This document shows, piece after piece, positions 1,617 to 47,481 of a stretch of 64,000 bases of DNA. Source of the DNA: Malus domestica (taxonomy: Eukaryota; Streptophyta; Magnoliopsida; Rosales; Rosaceae); assembly GCF_042453785.1 (NCBI RefSeq), contig NC_091675.1, forward strand, positions 3,360,501 through 3,424,500, read 5' to 3'. A program made the position numbers and the translations under genes. The stretch's first letter is position 1; every line of letters starts with the position of its first letter. The notes beneath the pieces were generated by a model. That model saw only the letters and a list, made by a program, of their open reading frames with translations. It was not told the origin of the DNA and ran no database searches.

Positions 1617-2206
1617 GTCTACTCGCTTAACTTTTTGATGTGTGAAAGTCTCCATATCATAGTAACAGATCTTGGTTCCGCCTACGTGTCTAGGTCACTC
1701 TATTTGTATTTTTCACGTGTTTAGCTTAAGTGTCACCACATGTAACGTGATGTGTGAGAACATGAAGAGTTGTTTAGCATTAGAAGATTAAGAAACTTTG
1801 TATGAACTTATAAGAAGATACGCTACTTCCTCCATTACCAATTGGTTTTGCGGTGAAAAGTCAAGTTGTTTCGTAAGGACACTCAAACTGAGTTCATCCT
1901 ATGCATTAAGACCATCTCCAACCCTTAGGTTAAAATCTAAATTTTTCAACCCATAAACAGTTTTTCTCACCCAAGTCTTAGGGGTTAAATTTTTAACTCA
2001 AGATATTAAAAAATGAATTTAGAATAATTTGTTTTTCTTAAAGTAACTTTAAAAAATGATGTAGACTATTATAACTTAATTTTATGAATATTTTAATATA
2101 AAAATATTTAGATTTCGATAAATATTAAAAAATCACTAAACCAACATCATGAAACTCGTGAAATACTATAAAAGAATATGAAACACATAATATTTTTTTA
2201 TAATTA
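1617..2206. other. Intergenic flank of the retrotransposon, possibly an old MITE
   Basis: No coding potential. The stretch from about 1910 (motif ACCATCTCCAACCC) and the DNA after 11963 read like the two halves of a disrupted non-coding repeat, so the large element may have inserted into a MITE. The similarity is weak and this reading is inference. Confidence 0.3.
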
Positions 2207-3146
2207 TGTGAACACGGAAAATTCCTGAAACGAAAGAGACAAGAACAACGTGCACAAAATAAATATTTGTATTTTGATGATTTTGGGTTACAATCTCTCT
2301 CAAATTTGATCCTCTGATTCGATCTCCGTAAGGTGTTGATTTATGGATGTTTCGTTGATCCAAGGGCCGTCGGGGCTTGATCTTGGATGAACTGTTTGGA
2401 AGTTTCTTCAAAAGGCCGTGGGCTTGATCTTTGAAGGTGGATTTGAGCGGATCTTCAAGGAGCCGTTGGGGCTTGATTTTGAGGATGAATGTTTCTTCAA
2501 GGGCCGTTTGAGGCTTGATCTTGAATAACGGTGATGAGCGGATCTTCAAGGGCTTTTGGGCTTGATCTTGAAGAAACAGTGATGAACAGATCTTCAAGGG
2601 CTTTTGGGCTTAATCTTGAAGAACGGTTGGATGTGTGTGGATTTGTCGACGTTGTTGATCCAAAGGGCCGTTGGGGCTTGATCTTGGATGAACGGATGAT
2701 GAACGATGGTGCTTTCTTCAAGGGCCGTCGGGGCTTGATCTTGAATTGGTGGATGATTGTTGATCCAAAGGGCCGTTGGGGCTTGATCTTGGATGAACGA
2801 TGAACGAAGAACGAAGAGAGCTTTCTTGATTCTTCGGGAACCTGGATGCTTGAGAGCTTCGGAGTTTCAGAGCTTCAAAGCTTCAAGGTGTAATATGAAT
2901 TGGTTCCCTAAATGAATGAATTAGCCTTCTATTTATAGAATTTTCCAAGGCCTAGTTTTGAATATAATATTCCAGATTAAATAAGTTGTTTCTGCCAGGT
3001 GTTGACACGTGTCCTATTTGACGACTTTTCCAACTCATTTCAATTTTCGCTGAGTTGCATGCTACGTGTAAAATTTATGTAATACATGAGCGTTGACACT
3101 TTAATTTATCGGTCAACATTTATTTACCGAAATTTCGATGTCTACA
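2207..3146 (-). repeat. 3' LTR of the retrotransposon
   Basis: This copy matches 11023-11962 with the same length (940 bp). The one difference seen is C at 3050 against T at 11866. It contains a TATA-like box at 2929-2938, a G-box palindrome at 3004-3013 and nine hairpin repeats. Confidence 0.95.
2355..2800. repeat. Hairpin-repeat cluster in the 3' LTR (about nine units)
   Basis: Each unit has a left arm, a loop close to GGGCCGTTGGGGCTTGAT, and a right arm complementary to the left. Arms vary by unit: ATCCAAG/CTTGGAT, TTCAAG/CTTGAA, TCTTCAAG/CTTGAAGA, CTTCAAA/TTTGAAG. The arms change in step, so base pairing is kept while sequence changes. Units start near 2356, 2403, 2453, 2491, 2539, 2590, 2660, 2711 and 2760. 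Function unknown. Confidence 0.8.
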
Positions 3147-3161
3147 AATGCCCCCCACTTC
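3147..3161 (-). other. Polypurine tract
   Basis: On the minus strand the 15 bases directly before the 3' LTR read GAAGTGGGGGGCATT. This is the normal place and composition for the plus-strand DNA primer of an LTR retrotransposon and it fixes the element's direction. Confidence 0.85.
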
Positions 3162-3229
3162 AAGGCGCGTCGTATACATGTGCTTGTCATGTGTAGGAGA
3201 TGCGTTTTGAAGTCCCCTACTGTAGATGT

Positions 3230-3870
3230 CGATCCAAGGGCCGTCGAGGCTTGATCTTGAATTGGGCTGGAGATTTCTTCAAGGGCCGTTGAGGCTTGAT
3301 CTTGAATTGGGCTTGAGATTTCTTCAAGGGCCGTTGAGGCTTGTTCTTGAACTTTTGTTTGAAATTTCTTCAAGGGCCGTCGAGGCTTGATCTTGAAGGT
3401 TGAAATTGGACCACAAGGAGCTTCATGTGGTAGATGATCTTTGGCTTTGGTAGTGGGTGAATCGGCACGTATTTTGTTGCGCTTGTTGACTTTCCACAGC
3501 TTTGATCTTGAACTGGGTTGGAGGATTTTCTGGATTCCTCCAATTGTTGATTTTCCACAGCTTATTCTTGAACTAGGTTTTGATTCAAGGGTGGTAGACA
3601 CTTAATCTTGAATCGGACTTGTGATTTCCTCAAGGGTCGTCGAGGCTTGGTGTTGAATTTGGTTGGAAACTTCTTCAAGGGCCGTTGAGGCTTGATTCTT
3701 GAAGGTTGACTCGAACACATGGCAAGCAGGCACGAGGTAAAGGTGGCAACCTGTTTCTTTGTTCAATCTTTCTAATTCACACCTGAGCAGTTTGGTCAAC
3801 GGTATGATCTTCAAGATTGATGGGCTTTTCTTCCAGTCGGTGACTTGATCTTTAAGGATTTGATTCAAGG
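3230..3870. repeat. Hairpin-repeat cluster in the internal region
   Basis: At least seven more copies of the LTR hairpin unit occur here, near 3232, 3277, 3324, 3369, 3584, 3629 and 3671. The copy at 3584 keeps an 8-bp stem (GATTCAAG/CTTGAATC) although its loop differs (GGTGGTAGACACTTAAT). The LTR-type repeat thus continues across the LTR border. Confidence 0.75.
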
Positions 3871-5090
3871 GTGGTGAATCGACCCGTGCAGCTCACAACG
3901 TCTAGTAAGTCGACCCAAGAATTTGAGGGTCAAAACGAGTCCTCCACACAGAGTGATTGCAACTTTGATGATATGAGATACTTTTGATTTTGAAGAAGTA
4001 GCGGATGAATCGGCACGTGCTTTGTGCTTGTCTCCACATGCTTCAATGTATCATTTCCCTTGCCTTATCTATTCTTCTGGCAGAATGTGGCATGTGCTCG
4101 AGTTTCTCAGTTTAGACTCCTTCTGCTGAGTTGATTGTGCATGCCGCATTTCCTTATTTGTTCTCCAGGCAGATGTGGCATCTTCTCGAGTTCTTCAGCT
4201 CGGACTCCTTCTGCTGAGTTGACTGTGCAGGCCGCAGTCTTCTCAGCTTGTTTCTTCAGCACGTTGTCTCCACATGCTGCAAGGTATCATTTTCACTTGC
4301 CTTATCTGTTCTCCAGACAGATGTGACAGCTTCTATGGAAGTACAGCAGCAGTGGGAGACGAGTACTTGAGAGCAGTGCTAGGCAGGCAATCAGGGAAGG
4401 GTTCCAAGCAGTCGGTTCCTTACCCGAGTTTGAGTGGAGGTTCCGGCATATTGTTTTCTTTATCCTTGTCTTTGTAAGTAAGAACAAGGACAAAGGAAAG
4501 GACAGGGAGAACGCATGATATGAGATACTCTTGCTTTCTACCCTGGTGATATGAGATACTTTTGCTTTGGAGTCATTGGCTTGCAGAGGTACCCCAAGGA
4601 ATAAGGAACATTGAATGACTCGAGAGGCTTCGTTGGGAAAACATTTTTTGGAGATGAAGAAAGGCTCTGTATGTCTGCCTCGCTATGGAAGGTGAAGGTG
4701 GACAGTTATAGGAGGTCCCTTAATACCTGTAGAGGTACTATTCTTTCACTTGTGTCGGCAACTAACGCGTGATTGAACAGTAAACTTTCACGTGCTTTCT
4801 CCTTCACCGAAAATCTTCGACAAATTGCCCGTGATTTGCGCAAAGTTAAGTGTGCATATGATAGGTGATGACGCGGCTGAAAAAGACTGGCGCCTCTTCG
4901 ATATCTGGGATCGGCGCTTCGACAAATTACCCGTGATTTCCGCAAAGCTGAGTTTGCGTGTGACGGGTGCCGACGTGTCTGGAAAAGCAAGATGCTTCTC
5001 CGATTTCTGAGCTTGCCTCTTCGATTTTTGAATGGCCTCTTCGAATTCTGAGCTTGCCTCTTCGATCTCTGAAATCCCGTCGAGTGCTGA
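3871..5090. repeat. Internal non-coding region with local tandem repeats
   Basis: About 4060-4330 holds diverged units sharing ACTCCTTCTGCTGAGTTGA and TCTCCAGGCAGATGTGGCA. About 4900-5075 holds short units built on CTTCGATTTCTGAGCTTGCC. No coding pattern is convincing on either strand. Confidence 0.6.
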
Positions 5091-5092
5091 TC

Positions 5093-5100
5093 TTTTATAG
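5093..5100 (+). promoter_or_regulatory. Possible TATA box for the antisense ORF
   Basis: TTTTATAG lies 107 bp upstream of the ATG at 5207 on the plus strand, opposite to element transcription. Position and sequence fit a plant TATA box; there is no other evidence of a promoter. Confidence 0.3.
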
Positions 5101-5206
5101 AGGCAGGCAGTTCATTTCAAAGCACACTTGAATTTTTTGCTTGTACCTTCTTGCACTTCTAAGATCTCGATTTGTCCGACCTCTTCTTTCTTTAACACCT
5201 TTGAAA

Positions 5207-5875
5207 ATGTCTGGCCCCTCCGATCGTCGTTTTGACTTGAATCTTGGTGAAGAGGCAGTCCCTTCTTCTCCAGACAACATATGGCGCCCATCCTTCATAT
5301 CCCCCACTGGTCCTCTTACCGTTGGGGATTCAGTGGTGAAGAATGATATGACCGCTGCGGTGGTGGCCCGGAACCTTGTCACTCCCAGAGATAACAGACT
5401 ACTTTCCAAACGGTCTGATGAGTTGGCTGTTAAGGATTCTCTGGCTCTCAGTGTGCAGTGTGCAGGTTCTGTGTCTAATATGGCCCAACGCCTATTTGCT
5501 CGAACCCGTCAAGTTGAATCATTGGCGGCTGAAGTGATGAGTCTCAAACAGGAGATTAGAGGGCTCAAGCAGGAAAACAAACAGTTGCATAAGCTCGCAC
5601 ATAGCTATGCGACAAACATGAAGAGGAAGATTGACCAGATGCAGGAATCTGATGGTGAGATTTTACTTGATCATCAGAGGTTTGTGGGTTTGTTCCAGCA
5701 GCATTTGCCTTCGTCTTCTGGGGTTGTACCGCGTAATGAAGCTCCTCATGATCAACCTCCGGCTCCTCTTCTTCCTGGAGTTCCGCTGAGTGGTGTGGCT
5801 TCAAATAGTCAACCTCCGACGCCTCTCATTTCTGGAGCTCTGCCGAGTGGTGAGGCGGCACCTAATCGTCCTTGA
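5207..5875 (+). CDS. Antisense ORF protein of the retrotransposon (coiled coil)
   Basis: The ORF runs opposite to gag, between the missing pol and the 3' LTR. From the ATG at 5207 (start MSGPSDRRFDLNL) it encodes 222 aa; an upstream in-frame ATG at 5141 would add 22. After an acidic and Pro/Ser-rich N-terminus come a segment with heptad-like spacing (around VESLAAEVMSLKQEIRGLKQ and the following residues), a basic stretch, then a Pro-rich tail with two near-repeats of the type PPAPLLPGVPLSG. No enzyme motif is visible. Antisense ORFs in this position are known in Tat-type plant elements (e.g. Grande, RIRE2), but their role is not settled. I infer a structural or DNA/RNA-associated protein with low confidence. 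Retention of a 669-bp open frame in a gutted element is notable. Confidence 0.65.
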   Translation: MSGPSDRRFDLNLGEEAVPSSPDNIWRPSFISPTGPLTVGDSVVKNDMTAAVVARNLVTPRDNRLLSKRSDELAVKDSLALSVQCAGSVSNMAQRLFARTRQVESLAAEVMSLKQEIRGLKQENKQLHKLAHSYATNMKRKIDQMQESDGEILLDHQRFVGLFQQHLPSSSGVVPRNEAPHDQPPAPLLPGVPLSGVASNSQPPTPLISGALPSGEAAPNRP

Positions 5876-5894
5876 AGATCCCCTCTTGTAAATT

Positions 5895-5994
5895 TGATTT
5901 TTTTTTTTAAGTGTGTATAATGCAAATTTATGTAAAATTTCCAGAAAAAATAAATAAAAAACGGACTTTATTTCTCTCGATGCATTTGTTTTTT

Positions 5995-6029
<35 letters not shown>

Positions 6030-6176
6030 ATGGTGCTAGCCACCAAGGATTCACTATATATATATATATTCACATGATGCCCATGCCGACACCACCATTC
6101 CATTCTCCTCTTTTTTAATTTATTATATACTTTTTTTTTTTTTTTTTTTTTTTTGCTGGCACATGGTGCGATGTCC

Positions 6177-6207
<31 letters not shown>

Positions 6208-6393
6208 TTTTTTAATTTTTTTATTTTCTTTGCACATGGTGCCTGATGCACCATCCATTTTTTTTTTTTTTATATTTTCTTTTCTTTTCTTGCTCATGGT
6301 GGTGCTGATCCACCAATATTCCACCATTTCTTCTTCTTTCCAGACTGGTTTGTCCCCTTTCATTTTTTTATATATATTCCCCACATGGTGCAG
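5895..6393. repeat. T-rich and (TA)n low-complexity block with iterated CATGGTGC motif
   Basis: Long T runs (about 5998-6028, 6130-6154 and 6260-6272) and TA runs (6055-6070 and 6178-6202) alternate with short islands of the type GCACATGGTGC or GCACCATCC. Several islands hold near-palindromic pairs such as CATGGTGG...CCACCA. The block separates the antisense ORF from the host-like fragments. Confidence 0.7.
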
Positions 6394-6570
6394 GGAGGAA
6401 ATGCAAGCGACGCCTTTCTTGTCCAGAAGGACGTCGGAAGTTTTGATATTGCCATGCGGTACTTTTGCAGAGCTCAACACCTCATGAATCCTGGCAAGGC
6501 CACAAGCCGCACCCAACACCAAGCTGATCCTTGTAGTCCAATCCAATGGGATTCTACCCGGACCCCGATT
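6394..6570 (-). pseudogene. Captured receptor-like kinase fragment
   Basis: A 59-residue minus-strand stretch reads like the middle of a plant LRR receptor-like kinase domain: an alpha-E segment (LDWTTRISLVLGAACGLARI) then the catalytic-loop region as VPHGNIKTSDVLLD. HGN in place of HRD is typical of atypical receptor kinases. It lacks the glycine loop, catalytic lysine, DFG motif and C-lobe, and runs into unrelated residues after VACISS. It lies in the transcribed sense of the retrotransposon, as expected for transduplicated host DNA. Match is by recall of the family. Confidence 0.65.
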
Positions 6571-7714
6571 CCTTCCCAATAACTGACGTACCACTTGACG
6601 AACTTCCTCAGCCCGCTGGCCCAAATCCGTGGTGGGTTTGTACCCTAAAGTCCTTGTACGCCAGGGTGTTTGACGACGGCTGCTATTCCGACAAGAGCAG
6701 CCCGAAACCTCTTTGTCCTTACTACACCCACAAGGTCAACAACAATTCTAACAACTATTTCAATGGCTCGTCAATCCCGACATTCGGTTCTCCCAATAAT
6801 CCCGACGTGGACAAGAAAAGGAAGAAGAGCAATGGCTGCTCCCGATTCGGTTTCGGCGGTTGCTGTTGTCGACCTGGATATGGAGATTCTGGAGAAGAAA
6901 AATAACAAGAATAACAAGGTTTTTAAGGCGTACGGCGACCCCTGTCTCGATCTGTTTTTCAACGTCACACAACGATCCAGCGATTACCGGGAGGAGCAGA
7001 GGAGACGGAGAAAGAGTAATTGTTGCCGGAAATAGCTTGAACCCAGACGGCGGTGACGAATCAGAGCCATTTGGTGGCGGAGGAAACGGACGAGCGGTCG
7101 GAAGCGAACCCCATGTTTGTGTCAGTCTGAAAAAAACGTACCGGTGAGGGTTGAAGATTAGCTGCTCAAGTGCTTCTTCTCCGTCTCTGTCGTTTGACGT
7201 CGACGACCTTCTCTAGCGCGGCGATTCGTTGAACACTAGCATCTACACCCATCTGAACCGCCTTGTTTCTCAGGTCCTGTCATGGCGAAGACATTAGAAG
7301 GAACTTTTGGAGGTGGATCTGCGAGATCTCGCCGCTGATTGCAGGCGCCATAGTCATAGGGAGGTCGGGGAGCTTGGTGCCGAGTCCGAGCAAGGCGACG
7401 GAGGTGAAGAGGGAGAAGAGGATGGCGATATCCTCAGCGGGCGCGGTAAAGCCGGTGAAAGAGAATGAAAACCCTAAGCTGACGCTTGTCTTCCGTGCCC
7501 CCTCCGTCTCGGAATACCCAGATCGCATTTCAGTCAGATTTGCTCGATCCGGCAACAGAGAGGCCGACCTGCTCGATCTAGAGCCGTTCGAGGGCTTTCT
7601 GGTCAGCCCAAGTCTCGATGGTAAGATCAGGCCTGGTATTGAGGCCGATGCCGATGACGACTAGGAAGCTGGTGTCGTAACACGGGAGGTGGTTCTGTTG
7701 GGGTTTGTGGTTTG
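6571..7714. other. Unassigned captured DNA inside the retrotransposon
   Basis: GC content is higher than in the surrounding AT-rich DNA. Open frames exist on both strands (e.g. plus 6546-6905, 7263-7664; minus 7280-7555), but none resembles a family I recognise. Composition suggests exonic origin, possibly more pieces of host genes. Confidence 0.4.
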
Positions 7715-7890
7715 TGGACGGAAATTAACGGCATCTCCTTCCAGGCGGTACTGCAGACGGGGCACAGGATGAGGCTGTTCTTCTTGACGTGGGCGGAGAT
7801 GCAGGCGAAGTGGAAGGAATGGGAGCACTCCGCTGTAAAAATGGCGGTGCCCTGACCGCTTTTTTTACACTCTGTAAGCAGATTCCGCAT
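7715..7890 (-). pseudogene. Captured RING-finger fragment, frameshifted
   Basis: One minus-strand frame gives KCGICLQSVKK, the first Cys pair of a C3H-type RING. A second frame gives the rest: FTAECSHSFHFACI, then LCPVCSTAWKEMPL. The switch falls at a run of seven T (7860-7866), so this copy is frameshifted at a homopolymer. The pattern resembles the RING of the WAV3/EDA40 E3 ligase family (vWA-type RING proteins). The rest of such a protein is not seen. Orientation is the same as the element transcript and the kinase fragment. Confidence 0.65.
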
Positions 7891-8384
7891 TTTGGAGAGG
7901 CGTAGGGGAAGAAGACAAGCTGGAGGTGAAGAACTGGGCCACAGGAGATGGGCCCAACGTTTGGTGGACTTGTTGATGGTGTGACCCGTGCTGCATCGAT
8001 TGAGATGAAGATGATATGGCATTGGGCCGGCCCATGGCTTTTGGTGAGCTTGGCGAGAGCTGGACCTGGGCCTGCTGTAGAATTTGATTGATATTGTTTT
8101 GCTCCATCATTGCGGCTTTTAAGTGGACATTTCAACATATATAATATAAAAAAAAATATATTATATATATTATTTTTTTTTTTGTAAATACATAAACATA
8201 TGTATTCATCATTTTTTTTTAATAAAATTGACTTTCCTTAATAAAACATTTATTTATATTTTGATGTGACTGAACTCGAAATTTCGAATATTCAAGCTGC
8301 CTACGTACCCCTCTAAAGAAGAGATCAAGTCGTAACGTAGTTCAAATACATAGATATTTTTTTTTTTGTATTTTCTTTTGGTGG

Positions 8385-8970
8385 TGCCGTTTGCAGTTTC
8401 AACTCGTGCAGGCAAGGAGCGTTGGTGTCGTTTGCAGTTTCAACTCGTGCAGACAATGAGCATTTGGTGCCGTGTTGCAGTTTCAGCTCGTGCAGGCAAG
8501 GAGCTTTGGTGTCGTTCGCAGTTTCAACTCGTGCAGACAAGGAGCATTTGGTGCCGTGTTGCAGTTTCAGCTTGTGCAGGCAAGGAGCGTTGGTGTCGTT
8601 CGCAGTTTCAACTCGTGCAGACAAGGAGCATGTGTTGCAGTTTCAGCTCGTGCAGGCAAGGAGCGTTGGTGTTGCCTTTTATGCTCGTGCAGACCAGGAG
8701 CGTTGGTGTTGCCTTTTATGCTCGTGCAGACCAGGAGCGTTGTGCCATGCAGTTTAGGCTCATGCAGGCGATGAGCTTTGTGTCTTGCAGTTTAGGCTCT
8801 TACAGACAAGGAGCTTTGTGTCATACAGTTTAGGCTCGTGCGGACAAGGAGCGTTGTGTCTTGCAGTTTAGGCTCTTACAGACAAGGAGCTTTGTGTCCT
8901 ACAGTTTAGGCTCGTGCGGACAATGAGCGTTGTGTCTTGCAGTTTAGGCTCTTACAGACAAGGAGCTTTG
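8385..8970. repeat. Tandem array of 37-42-bp units after gag
   Basis: About 14 units share GCAGTTTNNNCTCGTGCAG then RCAAGGAGC. Proximal units (8390-8655) are mostly 42 bp, alternating TTTCAACTCGTGCAGACAAG and TTTCAGCTCGTGCAGGCAAG types. Distal units (8745-8970) are 38 bp with TTTAGGCTC. All frames stay open for long distances because unit lengths vary. The array sits directly downstream of the gag stop. Confidence 0.85.
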
Positions 8971-8979
8971 GTGAATTTG

Positions 8980-10944
8980 TCAAACAATTTTGGAGAGGCA
9001 TTCCTCACAATCTTCATAGCAAGGAGCCTTGACCGAGTGATTGAAGAAGTCTTCGGGCAAGAAATCACGCATCGTGATGGGGATGGACGATCTATATGTT
9101 GAAATTTCATCATCTTTAACACGTTCACGTTGCTTCGAAGGTTGACAAGAGCTACTTTGCCCCCTTTCCGATTGGCGAACTTGTGGAGGAGACGTATGCT
9201 TCTTGTACAATTTCTTAGGAGTGACTTGAGTCCATCCTTCAACTTTGCTTGTCTTGGAGGATGCCCCCAGTGGTTGAGGTGAAAACTTTGAGTCGGAAGA
9301 GCCAGAAGTAAAGGTGGTATAGTTTGACTTCACCACATCGTCAAGATCTAGCTCGATGATTCCTTTCTGAGCCAGCTTCATGATGAGATCTTTCAGCACA
9401 AAACATTTTTCTGTCGGATGACTGATGAAGCGGTGGAATTTGCAGTACCTTAGACTGTCGGTACGATTCATCTCTTCCGGCCGTCTGCACTCAGGCAAAC
9501 TGATCACCTTTTTGTCCAACAGGTCATCCAGCATGGCAACTACATCAGAGTCGGGGAATGGATAAATCTTCTCCTCAAGCTCCTTCAAAGTGCGTCTACG
9601 CATCTCTTGATCACGAAAAGCTTCGGTTTGAATTGCCTTGCCTCGTGTGGAGATTTTGACGGGAGCTGTGTTGACCGTCATCGCTTCCTTGGTGGGTTTC
9701 CATGCAGCCTTTTCCACCTTTGTCCCAAGAACTTTGTCGTTCTTGTAGTCGGCGATCGACTCTTTCTTCCCATGATGGGCGATGCTTAACTCCATGTCAT
9801 GGGCGCGAGTGGCCAATTCCTCGAAGGTCCGTGGTTTAATGCCTTGAAGAATGTATTGCAAACCCCATTGCATGCCTTGGATGCACATCTCGATTGAAGA
9901 GGTTTCCGAGAGCCTGTCTTTACAGTCGAGGCTTAGAGTGCGCCATCTGTTGATGTAGTCAATGACTGGCTCGTCCTTCCACTGCTTTGTGCTTGTTAGC
10001 TCTAGCATGCTCACAGTGCGGCGGGTGCTATAGAAGCGATTGAGGAATTCCCGCTCCAATTGCTCCCAACTGTTGATAGACTCAGGCTCCAGATCCGTGT
10101 ACCACTCAAAGGCGTTTCCTTTAAGCGAGCGCACAAACTGCTTGGCGAGGTAATCCCCTTCGGTTCCTACGTTGTTGCAAGTTTCAACGAAGTGGGCAAC
10201 GTGCTGTTTCGGGTTTCCCTTTCCATCAAATTGCATGAACTTTGGTGGTTGATAACCCCTCGGCATCCTTAAGGCGTCGATCTTCTTTGAATACGGCTTT
10301 GAGTACAACCCGGAGGTATATGAGCTCCCTTCGTACTGTGCCTTGATGGTGTTGGTGATCATCTCTTGCAGCTGCTGGATAGAAAGAGATCCCATGAGTG
10401 CCGCTGCTTGGTCTGGGTTCGGCTTCACATCGTTTTTCTCCACCTGAGGCTCATCTTCTTCGTCATCTCTTCTCTTTAGTGGATCATTCTCTGGGTCGGG
10501 TTTATCGTCGTCCTGCGCCTCTAGTCGATTGACGAGTGTTGCAATTTGCAAGTCTTTTTCTTCCACAATTCGGGTTAGCCTTGCGATTGCTTCATTCATT
10601 TGAGCCAGTTGTTCTTCAACGGAGATAACGCCGATAGTCATGACTTGTGCGACCAATAGACGTGACTTTCCTTTAGACATCCAGGATGCTGATGAAGAAC
10701 GTCGTTGGCTGCTTTGGGATGTCATCTTGTGTGCCCCAACATCGTGCTTCGGTGCCCCCAGCGAGGTCAGGTTGATGACATACTCACACCTTGGATGCTC
10801 CCATTGCTCTTTTAGCGGCACCAATTTTGAAGTGGCATGTTGAGGAGCGGTCGTGGCGCCAATGGATTGTCCGTTTGCGGCAGAAGTGCTTAGGATCATT
10901 CCCTCAGTGGTTGCAAGAACGGCTTGTTCCTTGCTTGATGCCAT
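8980..10944 (-). CDS. gag: Retrotransposon gag polyprotein
   Basis: A 654-aa ORF begins at the ATG at 10944 (MASSKEQAVLATTEGM). The open frame continues upstream through the PBS into the LTR, so the first methionine after the PBS was chosen. The N-terminal half has a Glu/Leu-rich probable coiled coil and an acidic linker. The retrotransposon gag domain follows at about residues 240-345, with NAFEWYTDLEPESINSWEQL and then REFLNRFYS. A zinc knuckle CX2CX4HX4C is not seen; a C...H/C pattern RYCKFHRFISHPTEKCFVLK sits near residue 520. The protein ends at EECLSKIV just before the tandem array, where protease and pol would follow in a complete element. It would build virus-like particles in the cytosol. 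The frame is intact. Confidence 0.9.
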   Translation of the reverse strand: MASSKEQAVLATTEGMILSTSAANGQSIGATTAPQHATSKLVPLKEQWEHPRCEYVINLTSLGAPKHDVGAHKMTSQSSQRRSSSASWMSKGKSRLLVAQVMTIGVISVEEQLAQMNEAIARLTRIVEEKDLQIATLVNRLEAQDDDKPDPENDPLKRRDDEEDEPQVEKNDVKPNPDQAAALMGSLSIQQLQEMITNTIKAQYEGSSYTSGLYSKPYSKKIDALRMPRGYQPPKFMQFDGKGNPKQHVAHFVETCNNVGTEGDYLAKQFVRSLKGNAFEWYTDLEPESINSWEQLEREFLNRFYSTRRTVSMLELTSTKQWKDEPVIDYINRWRTLSLDCKDRLSETSSIEMCIQGMQWGLQYILQGIKPRTFEELATRAHDMELSIAHHGKKESIADYKNDKVLGTKVEKAAWKPTKEAMTVNTAPVKISTRGKAIQTEAFRDQEMRRRTLKELEEKIYPFPDSDVVAMLDDLLDKKVISLPECRRPEEMNRTDSLRYCKFHRFISHPTEKCFVLKDLIMKLAQKGIIELDLDDVVKSNYTTFTSGSSDSKFSPQPLGASSKTSKVEGWTQVTPKKLYKKHTSPPQVRQSERGQSSSCQPSKQRERVKDDEISTYRSSIPITMRDFLPEDFFNHSVKAPCYEDCEECLSKIV

Positions 10945-11001
10945 TGACTTTGAGGTGTGCTTGGATTCCTTGAACGGAGAAAGAGATGAGAGGTAGAGAT
11001 T

Positions 11002-11019
11002 GTCCCACTGGGCGTGCCA
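11002..11019 (-). other. Primer-binding site
   Basis: Three bases after the minus-strand end of the 5' LTR the sequence reads TGGCACGCCCAGTGGGAC. It starts with TGG, the complement of a tRNA CCA end, as in LTR-element primer sites. I could not name the priming tRNA with confidence; it is not the usual initiator-Met type. Confidence 0.75.
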
Positions 11020-11744
11020 ATTTGTGAACACGGAAAATTCCTGAAACGAAAGAGACAAGAACAACGTGCACAAAATAAATATTTGTATTTTGATGATTTT
11101 GGGTTACAATCTCTCTCAAATTTGATCCTCTGATTCGATCTCCGTAAGGTGTTGATTTATGGATGTTTCGTTGATCCAAGGGCCGTCGGGGCTTGATCTT
11201 GGATGAACTGTTTGGAAGTTTCTTCAAAAGGCCGTGGGCTTGATCTTTGAAGGTGGATTTGAGCGGATCTTCAAGGAGCCGTTGGGGCTTGATTTTGAGG
11301 ATGAATGTTTCTTCAAGGGCCGTTTGAGGCTTGATCTTGAATAACGGTGATGAGCGGATCTTCAAGGGCTTTTGGGCTTGATCTTGAAGAAACAGTGATG
11401 AACAGATCTTCAAGGGCTTTTGGGCTTAATCTTGAAGAACGGTTGGATGTGTGTGGATTTGTCGACGTTGTTGATCCAAAGGGCCGTTGGGGCTTGATCT
11501 TGGATGAACGGATGATGAACGATGGTGCTTTCTTCAAGGGCCGTCGGGGCTTGATCTTGAATTGGTGGATGATTGTTGATCCAAAGGGCCGTTGGGGCTT
11601 GATCTTGGATGAACGATGAACGAAGAACGAAGAGAGCTTTCTTGATTCTTCGGGAACCTGGATGCTTGAGAGCTTCGGAGTTTCAGAGCTTCAAAGCTTC
11701 AAGGTGTAATATGAATTGGTTCCCTAAATGAATGAATTAGCCTT

Positions 11745-11754
11745 CTATTTATAG
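11745..11754 (-). promoter_or_regulatory. LTR TATA box
   Basis: CTATAAATAG on the minus strand is a strong plant TATA box. It should start transcription about 30 bp downstream (near 11715), with the hairpin cluster and gag downstream. The same box lies at 2929-2938 in the 3' LTR. Confidence 0.75.
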
Positions 11755-11819
11755 AATTTTCCAAGGCCTAGTTTTGAATATAATATTCCAGATTAAATAA
11801 GTTGTTTCTGCCAGGTGTT

Positions 11820-11829
11820 GACACGTGTC
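11820..11829. promoter_or_regulatory. G-box palindrome in the LTR upstream region
   Basis: GACACGTGTC is a perfect 10-bp palindrome with the CACGTG core bound by plant bZIP and bHLH factors. It sits about 65 bp upstream of the LTR TATA box. A copy is at 3004-3013. It suggests abscisic acid or light/stress responsive element expression (inference). Confidence 0.5.
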
Positions 11830-11962
11830 CTATTTGACGACTTTTCCAACTCATTTCAATTTTCGTTGAGTTGCATGCTACGTGTAAAATTTATGTAATA
11901 CATGAGCGTTGACACTTTAATTTATCGGTCAACATTTATTTACCGAAATTTCGATGTCTACA

Positions 11963-12949
11963 AATTACTTTAGTAGTTAAATTTAAATTTGGACCGTTAG
12001 ATTTTTTTTTTACCATTGGAATTGATATTAGATCTTAACGTTAGATTCAATGAAGTTATAAATATAAAACAAAAAAAAAACACACACACACATATATGGT
12101 GAGCTAACCCCACTAACTTAGGGGGACATGAGTTTTGGGTTAAAATTCATATTTATCCCAAGAGCTAGAGCAAGTTAGGACAAGAGTTGAAGTAAATCCG
12201 AGTGAGCTTAAAATTGAAATACTCTTTTCGTCAAAAAAAAAAAAAAAAAGTTGGGAGTACTTTCTTGTTCATAGTTTTCGGTTTTAGACAAAAGTACGAG
12301 TCGAGTACGCGTCCTCTCTGCCTGGCTAGCCATGCAGCTTTTGCATCAACTAAATAATTGACTGAACGTTTGCCTGGTTGGAACATGGCAACTGTGACAC
12401 AAGGACATAAAAAATACACCACATTATTTACCCGAAACGATTTTTATTACACTACGTCGAGAAAAAAATAAAAGTAAAAAGCAATTGATTTTTTACATGT
12501 GAAAAACCGATAAAAAATTACTTCTGTAAATATAAATAATAGCAAATTTTCGTTGTGAAATACAGACGATAATGATAGCTTGTTAATTTGACCCCAAAAA
12601 ATTCAAATGAAATCCAATAAAAAAAAGAATAAGCTCGGTCAATACACCGCCCTATCAAAACGAAAGCTACGAGTTCGAGCCCTTTGAATCGATCGACAAC
12701 CGGTTATTGGTGAAACTAAAGTTTGTGGGTACATAACTGCATCATATACAGTACCGACTAGCGTCTTCTTTTTTGGTACTACAACCTCTTTGGATGTCTT
12801 TTTCCTTTGGATTATGTAAATCCAAAAAAATACCTCCAGGATCCCACCAAAACCTCACCATCCTTTGAAATGCAAACAATCCCTCAACGGCCAAAAAAAT
12901 ATTTTGAACTGAAAAGTTCTGTGAAGGAGTGCTCATGAGTTCAGTCCGA
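11963..12949. other. Intergenic DNA with a possible tRNA-derived SINE piece
   Basis: No gene seen. Around 12628-12730 a stretch has GCTCGGTCAATACACCG and then GAGTTCGAGCCC, resembling A and B boxes of a tRNA-like promoter. The rest is AT-rich with poly-A and CA runs near 12070-12095. Confidence 0.35.
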
Positions 12950-16631: not shown

Positions 16632-19197
16632 TACCACCTACCAAAAAGCAAATGTTGTAGCTGATAGAGTCATTATACTGTATACAAAAGGTCCAGCTAT
16701 TGAATCAGCAAGCCTTTGTATGGGTGCTTCATGTCCTTGAGCATCCTCAACCTAACAAGTATGATATATCATTCATCGACTAACAAGCAAGGGTGCCAAA
16801 GTTAATTATACTACACAGACAACATCAAACAAAAAAAAATTCCTTGCATTATTAACCTTCCCTCAATGGAAAAGTGTCTATCCTCTACATCATATGTAAC
16901 AAATTGTCCGAGTGAAAGTAAGTTACTTACCATGCGAACGATCTTGGATATCATTGAATTGGAGCCAGTTGAAGATGCTTCAACCCGCAGAGGACCATCC
17001 TGAAATATGTAAACAAATGCCCTTCTGCTTTAGGCATGCAAAGGACAATCTAATAAAATTACACATCACTCTCAAGCTAACATAAACATACCCAGTTTAT
17101 GGTTCCAGCTGAGACAGTAAGGTCTTTTTCCTTGAATACAGGAAGTGATTCTCCTGTGAGCATGGATTCGTCGACAACACTTCTTCCAGCCACAACTCTT
17201 CCCTGTTGAAGCAATTTAGTTTCAGAACACACTGAATCACAAGTTTACAAGAACATTCAAATTAGACAAGTAACTGAACATTTGTTTTTTCAGTGCTGGT
17301 CTCTGCGGACAATCCAAAATGCTTACATCCACAGGTATGGTTTCTCCTGGCAAAACCAACACAGAGTCTCCAACCCGAATATCGTCAGTTGGGACTTCAA
17401 CGCATATTGCATCAGAGAAAAGTACACTGTTGCTGGAGGAATCATTTTCCGAGGAACCAATTACAAGTCTTGCTTGTGTGTTTATCAGTGACTGTCAAGC
17501 ACATTCAAATCAAACTTGTGTTGGTATACATAAAATATTGAAGTATAAAAGAAGAAAAGCCACATCATGCATATATTATAATTAAAATTTATCAATTTGA
17601 TTTTTTCTACATGAGTCAGATTCTAACTTACCAAGAGTTCATTCATATCACTAGATGCCTTGATCCTTGCCCTTTCCTCGAGAGAACGTCCTAGGAGCAC
17701 AAAACCAAGAAGCATGACCTGCATACTAAAAGAGACGAGCTTTATGTGAGAATCTCATCAACCAAAGATCTTTAGTATCTATGTAAATATGTAACTGTAA
17801 AATGCAGGTTCTCAAGCAAACCCAGAAAAATGCAAAATGGGATACTAAAGGCTCAAGCTTGATACGAGATATCAACAACTTCTCGTAATCGTGCAAAAAG
17901 CAGAAAATTTCATAAATGATAAATAATGAAAAGGTTGAAAGCAAAACCAGTCACCGGCTCATCGAAGAACGCTGCATCCCATTGAAGCCCAGGGTTGAGA
18001 AGCGAGACCTACACAAGCGAAGTATTTAAATTTCAAAACTTTGAACACCAAAACAAATTGGAACCAACTTGCATTTAAATGAAAAAAGAAGAATCAACGC
18101 TAGTTACTAAAACAAAACAAACAAACAGGGACTGACCGCACTAATTGTAAAAGCTGCGAGGGATCCGAATCCCACAAGAGAATTCATGTTTGGTGCTCCT
18201 TTCTTGAAGGCTCTCAGACCATCAAAAAGCAAGTCTGCCCGAAATTAGTTTGAAAAAGTATCAGCAAATGCATGAAAAGTGAAAATTTGTTAGTTTATAC
18301 AGCAGAAAGCACTTCTACTTAGAAGATTGCAATCCAAATTTTCTGAAAAGTGCAAGTAAATTGCAGGAAGATCAACGAACCTCGGCCAGGTCCCAACAAA
18401 GCCCCGGTAGCTAAACCCGCCTTTACATACGAATTATGCAGCAGCTCCCAAAACGATCCTAATCCAATTCAAACCAAAATCCATTGTCAAAATCGAAATA
18501 CACAAAATTAAACAAAGCTGTAAAGAAAGAAAGCATTTTTGGTTGTTAGTAAATTACCATGAGCAGCATGAATTCCAAGAGAATGCAAAATGTGAGAAGC
18601 ATGCGATCCGCAGCACAATGCCACTAAAGTCCAAGCTAAAATCACTCTGTTCCTGCTCTTCACCAGCATCTCCTCCTTCTTCCTCACCGTCTCCTTCCAC
18701 TTCCTCACGCTCTCCGCCACTCCCATCCCGGAAGCCCTCCTCTTGGAAGCGAATCCGCACTCTGTCAGCCTCCCCGCCAGGCTCTCCGCCGCGACATCGG
18801 CGGCGACCTCCGGCCTCAGCTTGATCGCCGCCGTTTCGGTCAGCAAGTTGACCGCCACCGAGTCGACTCGGTCGTCGGCGGAGAGAACAGATTTGACTCG
18901 CGAGACGCAGCCGCCGCACATCATCCCGGAGACATCGAGCAGGACCGATGCCTCGGCGGGTGGATCATTCTGGACTTGCTGAAGCGGCGCTGCGGCGTCG
19001 GCGGAGGTCTGGAGGGAGCTGCGGAGGGTGAAATTAGGGATTGATTGGGGCCGGAGGAGGTGGTTGGAACGGCGGCGTTGCGGGAGGTGGGGCTTGAAGT
19101 TGAAGGCGAAGCGGTCAACACTGGAGGAGTTGGTGGTGTAGCTGAAGAGGAGCTTGGGGTCAGAGGAGAGAGAGAGCCTCAGCATACTGTTTATCAT
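13750..19197 (-). CDS. PAA2: Copper-transporting P1B-type ATPase PAA2 (HMA8), thylakoid
   Basis: Moves Cu+ across the thylakoid membrane toward plastocyanin. Seventeen exons join in frame to 887 aa: 19197-18558, 18458-18381, 18234-18137, 18008-17955, 17718-17632, 17491-17327, 17202-17092, 16999-16931, 16751-16642, 16420-16315, 15837-15771, 15571-15492, 15346-14895, 14779-14605, 14347-14216, 14134-13984, 13838-13750. After a basic plastid transit region comes the metal-binding domain with GMMCGGC (Cys94, Cys97). The actuator has MLTGES, the channel helix has SCPCALGLATP (CPC defines Cu+), the phosphorylation site DKTGTLT is split over exons 12/13, and VGDGINDAP forms the hinge. GMMCGGCVSRVK matches PAA2 rather than PAA1. 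Length agrees with the Arabidopsis protein (about 883 aa). All catalytic motifs are intact. Met5 is an alternative start. Confidence 0.95.
16584..16631. repeat. (TG)n(GA)n microsatellite in PAA2 intron 9
   Basis: About 12 TG units followed by about 11 GA units. On the transcript this is a CU-rich then AC-rich tract starting about 10 nt after the exon 9 donor site (16641). Likely length-polymorphic. Confidence 0.9.
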
Positions 19198-20178
19198 TGC
19201 TGCAGATTCTAGAGAGAGAAAGCTTAGTTTAGAGAGAGAGAGAGAGATCTGATAGTAAGAGAAGAGAAGAACGTAAGTGGTGGAAGATGAAGGGGAAAGG
19301 TTGAGGTGGTCGTTGAAAATGGGTAAAATAATTGGCGCTGGAATTAAATTTAGTTTGCCACGTCGGATTCTTACCCAACTGTTGTCGGCCAGCAGCTCAC
19401 CTCGTGTAAAATAAGCTCGGATACAAAATATTAAAAAAAAGAGGAATCATTGTAGAATAGTTTTTTTCGATTTCGTTAATCAACAGTTAAATAATAATTC
19501 AATAATTGATAAATTCGTTATATAATTCATAAATTTTGGTCTAAATAAATGGAATTTCTAGTATTATCTTTTTTTTTCTTTCAACTCATATGATATGATA
19601 GTTGATGGTTGAACGTTCTCTTTAAATCACTAAAAAGATGTTCAATCACTCACTACAACCAACTCTCATCTCTATTCAACTAGTAGTTCTCACAGTTTGG
19701 ACCGTCAATTGTCACATTGATTTATAAAAGATATTCTAAATTTGATCTACCTAACTTTTTTTTTATTATTATCACTTAATATTATGATCTAGTAGAATTC
19801 TTCTTCAGTTATAAGTGAGAGATCTTAAGCTCGATTTTGACCAAAAGCAAATTTGAACTATATTATTGCTAGCCTATTATAAGATTTAGTCTATCCCTTA
19901 TAGATAATATCTTTTATTCAAAAAAAAAAACTTTCTTTATTATTATATTATTGTTAAGTGGGATTTCCATGTATTTCTTTAACGCAATAATTAATTATTG
20001 AAATATGATGAAATTAATGAACACCAAAATACCAAAGAAAAAACTAGTGGAGAGAAAACGTCGTCGTTGCAAGCACACAACGCCAGGGAAATACAACACC
20101 AATTATCCAAAAATACTCTCCTCTGATCCTACGCTTTATCTGGTTCAGCTTCTGCTTCCTCACCACCACCGAACGAAA
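19198..20178. other. Shared upstream region between PAA2 and the YlmG gene
   Basis: This 981-bp stretch separates two divergently transcribed plastid-protein genes. Near 19217-19250 is a GA-rich tract in the PAA2 leader. The middle (19430-19990) is AT-rich with no repeat identified. No clear TATA box was fixed for either gene. Confidence 0.6.
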
Positions 20179-23629: not shown

Positions 23630-25376
23630 TCACAATCCAAAGGCATACCACATTGCAATCAGAGCCGTGGCAAAAAATGGCCACAGATGACTGCTTCTAG
23701 ACCAATCATCGGCACCACTGGCCGGGTGATTTGATTCGCTGCAGTCATCATTAGCACCACTAAAGCATCCGGGCCTTGTTATTTTAGCCTCACCTCCCTC
23801 CGTTACGAAGCTGCTGTTAGTTTTTCCACCACTAAACAGCACACACCAGAAATATGGAGCTCCGCCATCACTGCCACTCGCAGCAGCTCCCACTTCAGTG
23901 TGATTCTTATTGTATAGAATGTCCAAGCCCTTGCTGTTTTCAATCAAGATTGTTGAAAATGCTTCATCAGCGTGGACATATTTGGACTGGCAGCCAATTA
24001 AACGACCGGTGATTGGAGTGAGGGTTGCGGGTTGAACGCCACAGTTGGGAGCAAATGTTTCGGCAAATGCAGAATCAGCAGGCTTCTTGGCGTCAGTTCC
24101 TCCTACAGCATCGCAGTCACCCTCATATGCCTTTATGTACTGCAGGGCAATGCACGCCAAACCCTGGTTGCTGTAGAGGGATGATGCTTTGTGTGCAGTT
24201 CTGTTGCTGTTAATTATATCGACTAGTTTATCTGCCGGGTTGTTAGTAACTTTGACTGCAATTTTCATCCATGATAAATCGGAGGTTATAAGTTTTTGTG
24301 AGCCTCAAGCACAATAAGGAGAAATGTTTTTATCCTTACAAGAAAACACTATTTGAGAGCATGTAAATGATAAGTCAAACAGAAACCAATGAAACGAAAA
24401 ATATAACCCAATCAAGTAAAAAACTGAACCCAATGAAGTGAAAAACCGAATCCTAATGAAGCGAAAACTGCACCCGAATCCCGATGCAGTGAAAAAAAGG
24501 AACCCAATGAAACACAACAACTGAACCTAATGAGAAGTGGGAAGCCAAAAACAAAACCATGTAGATTCTAAAATGTATCGAATTTGTAAGGGCGAAAAAG
24601 GTCCAATGCCAACTTGCCAAGTTTAGAAATCAAAATCTGGCAATTTTATTAGCTGCATTGCATCCCAACTCACAGACCACCTCTTAAATCTCATCTGCTG
24701 TTTCGGTTGCCATAAAACAAACCTTCAACCGGCAACCTTCAACCGAAGAGAATATTCAAATCTAATCAAAATTACGGGAAGAGGATTCGAACTCGGATGC
24801 AGAGGGGGAGCAAACAGCTCTAGCCAACTTGGCTACGCCCTTATTCAAGCGTGCCCTTAAACATCACAATCCAAGATCCAAAATTGTAAAATTGCTATGA
24901 AAAGAAGCAAGATTTTAAACTGCAAAAGTCTGCCACCAAATAGATCGACCCACTCAACACCTAAGCTCTGATCTTTAACCACAATGATCTAAATCCATAA
25001 CAAACTCCAACCAATAAATTCACAGACTTTTATGCAACTGCAGAGATGAAAAGTGCATCCACATTTGGGAAAGTACATCAAAGACAAGACCTTCAAAGTT
25101 CAAATTAAAGAAACAGAAACCCAACAACCTTAAAGCAGCAGATCCAACAATCAGCACCCACAAAGAAATATATGTTCCAAATCTGAGACAGACGACAAAT
25201 TTTCCAACATTTTGTACTTGCATTGTCTTCGTCCTATCAAAACATGCATAAAGACGGAAACTTTGAATATATTTGCATCGCAGATTTGCAGGACACTTAC
25301 TTTGGGTACCAGCTGAAGCAGAGACGACAAGAACAGAAACTACAAGAAAGAGAAAGAATGTGCTGCTTGCCGCCAT
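23630..25376 (-). CDS. Secreted, probably GPI-anchored protein of unknown function
   Basis: Exons 25376-25301 and 24255-23630 join in frame to 233 aa. Residues 1-22 form a signal peptide (hydrophobic FFLFLVVSVLVVSASAG). The body starts ADKLVDIINSNRTAH, a SCP-like helix pattern, and holds cysteines spaced as in the plant At5g19250-like family; I see QGLACIALQYIKAYEGDC, FAPNCGV, GCQSKYV, FWCVLFSGGKTNSSF and RPGCFSGANDDC. The C-terminus is a Ser-rich spacer plus the hydrophobic tail LWPFFATALIAMWYAFGL, typical of a GPI-attachment signal. N-glycosylation sequons NRT, NHT and NSS are present. It should reside on the outer face of the plasma membrane. Biochemical function unknown. The 1.05-kb intron contains repeats. 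Confidence 0.85.
24380..24535. repeat. Short tandem repeats in the intron of the GPI-protein gene
   Basis: About six imperfect 20-28-bp units built on GAACCCAATGAAGTGAAAAA. No coding or structural role is apparent. Confidence 0.6.
24763..24845 (-). mobile_element. tRNA-derived SINE head
   Basis: On the minus strand GGGCGTAGCCAAGTTGGCTA (A-box like) is followed 25 bases later by GAGTTCGAATCCTC (B box). Spacing and sequence fit a tRNA-related SINE promoter rather than a functional tRNA, since no closed acceptor stem can be drawn. The body probably extends to about 24700. Confidence 0.55.

Positions 25377-43395: not shown

Positions 43396-47481
<4,086 letters not shown>

Follow-up and report, generated by a model that had tools for sequence, protein, structure and literature searches.

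Host-gene capture by long terminal repeat (LTR) retrotransposons is known from several plants. The Bs1 element of maize carries transduced parts of three host genes, none of them full length (PMC13317346), and host-gene fragments have been described inside LTR elements of maize, rice and sorghum (PMC2774510, PMC3726574); these papers, and those below, are cited from the portions of their text that were available. In the available portion of the maize survey, 425 intact LTR elements hold gene fragments, and in none of them do the pieces come from two or more standard nuclear genes (PMC2774510). LTR-mediated retroposition has been reviewed as a process of mRNA uptake into particles, template switches at short similarities, and partial copying of the mRNA (PMC5408686). 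Here, we analyzed a 64,000-nt stretch of Malus domestica DNA (NC_091675.1, positions 3,360,501 to 3,424,500; referred to as the window), in which an LTR element at 2207–11962 holds a mosaic of host-gene fragments, together with a sample of its relatives in the same genome, most of which hold pieces of other host genes in the corresponding slot. We consider it likely (probability of roughly 0.8) that these elements form a gag-bearing, pol-less Ty3-like family with one slot, into which template switching brings host cDNA and through which such cDNA is exchanged.

The family resembles Bs1 in that an LTR element carries parts of several host genes; however, Bs1 is described as one element type with one gene set (PMC13317346), whereas here many members carry varied cargo in one slot, alongside an antisense open reading frame (ORF) and tandem repeats. 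The maize, rice and sorghum captures likewise lie inside LTR elements (PMC2774510, PMC3726574), but those in maize hold one standard nuclear gene each while several genes per slot are common here, and retroposition as reviewed relies on chance packing of mRNA (PMC5408686), in contrast to the present family, which suggests a fixed slot whose cargo is taken up in repeated rounds and passes from one element to another. In layout, the element is similar to Retand (PMC11963269) and to elements with antisense ORFs (PMC7264820): there too, an antisense ORF and tandem repeats separate the coding region from the 3′ LTR, and some members are without coding domains. A TRP28 domain is reported in the antisense ORF for 97% of Retand clusters (PMC11963269). 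The antisense ORF of the window element, noted already in the original prediction, lies near the 3′ LTR (5207–5875, plus strand), as in Retand, and gave no Pfam match to TRP28 at E-values up to 1; Retand is defined also by the grouping of its reverse transcriptase (RT), and as no RT was found in the window element, its lineage is not placeable. Gag is present, and no pol family was matched in Pfam scans of the window's cargo block, which recalls the TR-GAG elements, i.e., elements with LTRs and gag from which pol is absent, and to which the window family adds an antisense ORF and host cargo. Pack-MULEs and Helitrons also form families with assorted gene fragments, but these are DNA transposons, as opposed to the RNA-based route with lost introns suggested here. 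LTR gene capture is already known; for an LTR family whose members share a slot with multi-gene cargo, we found no description in the titles and abstract beginnings of papers listed in searches of the open-licence literature.

The window element appears to be a young copy of a Ty3-like LTR family that has kept its LTRs, primer-binding site (PBS), polypurine tract (PPT), gag, and antisense ORF. The two LTRs (940 bp each, with TG..CA ends) are identical at 939/940 positions, with the sole mismatch at 3050, and the element is flanked by a target-site duplication (TSD) of AATTA; its minus-strand orientation comes from a PBS adjoining 11023 and a PPT adjoining 3146, both identified by reading. Gag matches Retrotrans_gag (4.9e-14, Pfam), as in Ty3/gypsy elements; these are defined further by the pol order RT-RH-INT and by RT phylogeny, and no pol was found in the window element. 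The original prediction had listed all of these parts, and the near-identical LTRs also uphold its claim that the structure itself transposed recently; at the usual plant rates, one mismatch in 940 bp would presumably mean an age of some tens of thousands of years. After gag, the element continues with tandem repeats, the cargo block, an A/T-rich stretch, the antisense ORF, and the PPT beside the 3′ LTR (Table 1).

At least seven fragments of host genes make up the cargo block, a mosaic in which six of them lie in the sense of the element and one antisense. A search with this block against the same genome (651 Mb, 19 contigs) gave 42 matches, with 40 of 77 candidates scored; among the 20 regions fetched with flanks (L and C numbers denote loci and contigs), 2 belong to a second copy on C6, 8 are other elements (L017 with a weak backbone), and 10 are donors or paralogues. 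Six pieces map to six separate loci at 87–96% DNA identity, with no element sequence in the 5.5–7 kb fetched, and these six matches place the pieces beyond chance. The RING and receptor-kinase fragments in transcript sense that had been predicted were both recovered: the RING piece matches zf-rbx1 in one frame (1.1e-8) and, with X marks at frame breaks, zf-RING_11 (4.4e-9; both Pfam), and the kinase piece, in which Pfam scans found no family, matches SYMRK among PDB sequences (1.9e-6). Much of the remaining GC-rich DNA, which the prediction had left unassigned, turned out to be further gene fragments, one of them antisense; host capture stands, as a mosaic of seven or more genes in place of one RING and one kinase piece. 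The RING and kinase identities come from these matches, and the other four donor names, as well as WAV3, from reading translations: we take the donors of pieces B, C, D and G to be genes resembling a UDP-glucuronate 4-epimerase, a DUF2828 protein, a nodulin-like transporter, and a small mitochondrial-protein-like gene, respectively, and that of piece H to be a WAV3-like gene. Within piece G, 7510–7688 is the end of the small gene, in sense orientation, with 87% identity to C14:7.14 Mb. The C16 match of piece E is another element (L026), and its C9 match lies within an LTR pair of the family.

A fragment of MnSOD in the block gave a weak match (0.34) that rose to 3.2e-7 with X marks at its two frame breaks, although the marks were placed to fit and the second figure is optimistic. 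The residues skipped at these breaks match exactly in the next frame; its donor locus was not found in the same-genome search with the block. Pfam and PDB searches of the other unknown middle pieces gave no clear match, leaving MnSOD as the sole lead. Adjacent donors share short sequences at two junctions, ACCCT (C/B) and TAC (D/C). Piece J (7990–8140) also matches ~10 more places at 83–92%, representing either an older capture common to many members or related genes.

The sample of relatives comprises 18 places in addition to the window and its C6 twin, 8 chosen by cargo, 7 by LTR and 3 by gag, the latter two sets being close relatives of the window's element; Pfam scans in the relatives covered selected ORFs rather than whole slots. 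The eight cargo-chosen places hold parts of a common backbone (weakly in L017) with other cargo, overlapping the window's block in part. Clear host families came from five of the eight (20 ORFs scanned): SCAI (8.2e-57; L022 on C5), leucine-rich repeats (6.5e-18; L012), a 5MP HEAT protein (1.6e-28; L011), PPR repeats (6.9e-21; L027 at C9:34.73 Mb), and RING (5.4e-10; L016 on C3). L026 (C16) gave a weak DEP match (0.0065), and L003 overlaps L011, as L004 does L012, each pair standing for one place. At 2944–3906 of the L027 locus, a single 321-codon chimeric ORF joins the PPR repeats to a second stretch, which we take to resemble a sugar epimerase.

The LTR-only sample was drawn by scoring 40 of 2,573 candidates, which yielded 12 complete pairs of 9–11 kb besides the window; two LTRs on C9, ~17 kb apart, were left out as a pair. 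In the seven slots read, the gag-side edge is present in all, the A/T-rich edge in four of the seven fetched stretches, and a match to the window's block in none. Host domains occur in all seven (best E ≤ 1.5e-8 in each), with 16 of the 20 ORFs scanned matching Pfam at E up to 0.01. By slot, the families are Cyt-b5; F-box and Exo70; photolyase; PLP-dependent decarboxylase; histone H3 and LRRNT; malic enzyme and OB-fold; and raffinose synthase, WD40 and abhydrolase. At least two unrelated Pfam families are found in 4/7 slots above curated cut-offs and in 6/7 at E up to 0.01. One old capture followed by decay, in which a single block diverged among members via deletions and mutation, would fit the sub-blocks common to several members and the edge sequences common to many; however, seven cargos without a match to the window's block, holding different protein families, and donor identities of 87–100%, which point to separate events, make this explanation barely tenable.

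For the gag-chosen sample, 40 of 1,431 candidates were scored, and three stretches were fetched at the slot's distance from gag; they show no match to the window's element, and the slot position is deduced from that distance. Three of ten ORFs matched Pfam, with EF1_GNE (2.4e-23) in L066, and thaumatin (6.6e-16) and B-box (1.6e-6) in L067. By reading, L067 and L068 (C5:36.26 Mb and C6:9.78 Mb) carry nearly the same cargo; therefore, cargos are also amplified. Many gag matches near 95% may belong to this subfamily, and at C7:22.630–22.682 Mb, four gag matches of 94% lie within ~52 kb, perhaps as nested or tandem copies. The 1,431 gag and 2,573 LTR candidates are a first-look, unverified measure of family size. 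One scan each of viral_contigs and genome_contigs gave 7 and 57 pattern matches, respectively, none of which was a gag relative by tblastn.

No RT or integrase family was found in the ORFs scanned from the relatives' slots. Taken from these sequences, the cargo slot with differing gene content appears to be a feature of the family, beyond one gutted copy. The idea of a gutted element with pol replaced by host pieces thus survives in part, in that host-gene fragments do lie at the place of pol, but not as a single gutted copy, given that no pol, let alone a full one, was seen in the selected ORFs scanned from the slots read. The further proposal, that chimeric RNAs could silence or regulate the donor genes, is speculative. 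Occasional capture, as in Bs1, maize, rice and sorghum, with the slot as tolerated space and no family trait required, would be in keeping with what is already known of LTR elements (PMC13317346, PMC2774510, PMC3726574), and the cargo shared by L067 and L068 means that amplification explains part of the pattern. We nonetheless regard it as unlikely, as the seven LTR-chosen slots hold different genes, most of them from more than one unrelated family at the looser cut-off, whereas the available portion of the maize survey records no such element among its 425 (PMC2774510).

There is strong sequence evidence that the cargo of one LTR-chosen relative, L064 (C17:8.12 Mb), came from spliced RNA. It holds a 410-codon malic-enzyme frame (1.1e-76) followed by a 144-codon OB-fold frame (8.9e-44). 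In a donor search with 40 of 42 candidates scored, the malic-enzyme donor on C17 gave 11 adjacent matches (94–100%) spread over 3.6 kb, and the OB-fold donor on C11 two matches 1.7 kb apart, all of them being contiguous in the L064 cargo. In total, 11 introns (10 malic-enzyme, 1 OB-fold gene) have been lost, as in captured mRNA. The gene–gene junction has an 8-bp overlap, and the cargo recurs with 98% identity at a second place, C3:3.51 Mb. Both frames are in sense (1125–2785 of the locus), the first with the malic-enzyme N-terminal domain and the second complete-looking with an ATG start, and are candidate expressed retrocopies.

Another source of such cargo would be a DNA transposon (Pack-MULE-, CACTA- or Helitron-like) that gathered gene pieces from DNA and was then inserted into the element. 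Such transposons commonly carry mosaics of sense and antisense pieces, and at least three antisense pieces were seen here (the DUF2828 piece of the window, Exo70 in L060, and histone H3 in L063). However, simple scanning at the edges of the window's slot revealed neither convincing terminal inverted repeats with TSD nor Helitron ends, the cargo of L064 lacks its 11 introns, and cargos vary among members yet sit within the same element edges, making a nested DNA transposon quite improbable. Poly(A)-tail hopping, suggested as the capture step by A-rich slot edges (in element sense), was unsupported, the window's 3′-most piece ending inside a coding region.

Under the template-switching reading, element RNA and host mRNAs would be co-packed in Gag particles, where RT supplied in trans would jump between templates at short matches (we infer both steps, as well as the direction of exchanges). 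Such jumps would write stretches of spliced mRNA into the slot, which has the tandem repeats behind gag on one side and the antisense ORF on the other (~1.7–3.2 kb as delimited here), and would leave gag, PBS and PPT undisturbed. Later jumps between two co-packed element RNAs would replace, extend or exchange cargo, with LTR swaps possible. The sequences themselves show the mosaic and its donors, the intron loss of one relative, multi-gene slots, the sharing of sub-blocks, an LTR swap, and selection on gag and the antisense ORF (both below). A stronger version, which we hold to be finely balanced, is that the slot has evolved as a dedicated one, with Gag packing host mRNAs into a self-shuffling library of spliced cDNA, multi-gene cargos being gained, exchanged and spread, and some members able to make chimeric proteins.

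Several observations weigh against template switching into a family slot. Piece A begins exactly at the first base of its donor's second exon, which is not expected of a random switch within an mRNA. Donors and intron loss for 6394–8140 had been put forward as a check of the original prediction; six donors were found, but every piece assigned to one of them matches a single uninterrupted part of that donor and is uninformative on intron loss, which was tested in the cargo of L064. The antisense pieces, at least three in number, are not predicted by sense-mRNA switching alone; they could have arisen if templates were switched while the plus strand was being made, or if antisense transcripts were copied; in the available portion of a study of aORF elements, transduced genes are usually in the gag-pol sense (PMC7264820), whereas some pieces are antisense here. 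The seven LTR-chosen slots were read smallest first, a non-random choice from the twelve, with the other five unread, and L017 and L018 gave no Pfam match in the three ORFs scanned. In-frame stops occur in 7/20 gag comparisons (one or more each), and no pol-bearing partner turned up, though no completed search was aimed at one.

The original prediction had also proposed a search for other copies with the same block; besides many partial matches, this revealed one second complete copy, on C6 (100% over 1,747 bp), with its own matching LTR pair (1,013 and 1,014 bp, one indel) and a TSD of GATAT. Compared with the window element, this copy has 8 gap runs across 5201–11022 and, if one TA repeat is set aside, two substitutions there, and zero substitutions in 200-bp windows across 3207–5206, where the gaps include one of 88 columns. 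Its left LTR, in contrast, has 53 substitutions, the last of them at 3060, 86 bp inside U3, and 13 gap runs over the length that was aligned. The interiors are near-identical but the LTRs unlike; therefore, element RNAs recombine. A single switch between two co-packed RNAs during U3 copying would produce this pattern, one switch being sufficient because the same strand also serves to rebuild the 5′ LTR.

All 11 LTR pairs compared have exact 5-bp TSDs, with a pair divergence of 0–0.0235 and two pairs identical. Gag is under purifying selection, the ratio of nonsynonymous to synonymous substitution rates (dN/dS) of relatives versus the window having a median of 0.156 over 20 comparisons (0.74–2.49 in a wrong-frame control), which are non-independent, with some overlapping loci and the window as single reference. 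The minimum length of a comparison was 700 bases for gag and 300 bases for the antisense ORF; loci belonging to the window itself (L001, L029 and L030) were excluded, and the identical C6 copy gave no ratio. For the antisense ORF, dN/dS was 0.19–0.57 in seven comparisons at six loci, three of which have stops or a frame-shifting gap. Both proteins were therefore kept by selection, which could have acted in these elements or in an unseen partner supplying them by recombination.

With sampled members of a young family carrying differing, often multi-gene cargo in one slot, donors, switch points, order of events, exchange, and the fate of cargo become readable from one genome. This differs from the maize survey, the available portion of which places capture in few elements with one gene each (PMC2774510). 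The family would parallel Pack-MULEs and Helitrons by an RNA-based route, would be a source of chimeric ORFs and a system for asking which RNAs plant Gag packages, and would probably give rise to false gene models in genomes of this kind.

Table 1. Features of the LTR element and its cargo in the window.
Feature	Position	Strand	Evidence or best match
TSD AATTA, left	2202–2206	.	Sequence comparison
3′ LTR	2207–3146	-	939/940 identical to other LTR
PPT adjoining 3′ LTR	3147–3162	-	By reading
Internal repeats of ~45-bp unit also present in LTR (family D1)	3223–3706	-	
Antisense ORF, 222 aa, coiled-coil-like	5207–5875	+	
A/T-rich cargo-slot edge with repeated CATGGTGC motifs	5980–6396	.	
Cargo block, between tandem repeats behind gag and A/T-rich stretch	6394–8140		
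Piece A, receptor-kinase fragment, sense	6397–6572	-	95.5% to C14:14.26 Mb
Piece B, sense	6563–6667	-	92.5% to C4:1.79 Mb
Piece C, antisense to element	6660–7018	+	94% to C12:8.19 Mb
Piece D, leader and start of donor gene, sense	6999–7177	-	95% to C10:22.03 Mb
Piece E, without assigned source	7172–7318	.	94% to places on C16, C4, C9
MnSOD fragment, sense, two frame breaks	7290–7369	-	
Piece G, common to L017 (C14) and L018 (C9)	7397–7705	-	
Piece H, RING exon, sense, one frame break	7709–7890	-	96% to C1:14.96 Mb
Piece I, without assigned source; also in elements L016 (C3) and L027 (C9)	7897–7993	.	
Piece J, common to frame start upstream of SCAI Pfam match in L022 (C5)	7994–8142	-	
Tandem repeat array, 15 copies, 38–43-bp unit (families D2, D3)	8388–8974	.	
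gag, 654 codons, open	8980–10944	-	Retrotrans_gag 4.9e-14 (Pfam)
PBS region	11003–11022	-	By reading; one base (11009) unlike C6 copy
5′ LTR	11023–11962	-	
TSD AATTA, right	11963–11967	.	

A unit with GGGCCGTNGGGGCTTGATCTTG is repeated within the LTRs (2349–2797), and a close form recurs at 3223–3706 beside the 3′ LTR. The apple repeat HODOR (9,716 bp, KX869746; PMC13334179, also PMC6901071, PMC6445120 and PMC11197308, available in part) is similar to the window element in length, by which alone the two were compared. Elsewhere in the window, a 224-codon frame at 23630–24304 (minus strand) gave no Pfam match. We take this frame to resemble a plant X8-type GPI-anchored protein. Two likely host gene exons lie near the element, both on the minus strand: one at 18508–19446 with a heavy-metal-associated domain (1e-11), and one at 46654–47481 with a FAD-binding domain (3.5e-24), the translation of which presumably resembles a cytokinin dehydrogenase.

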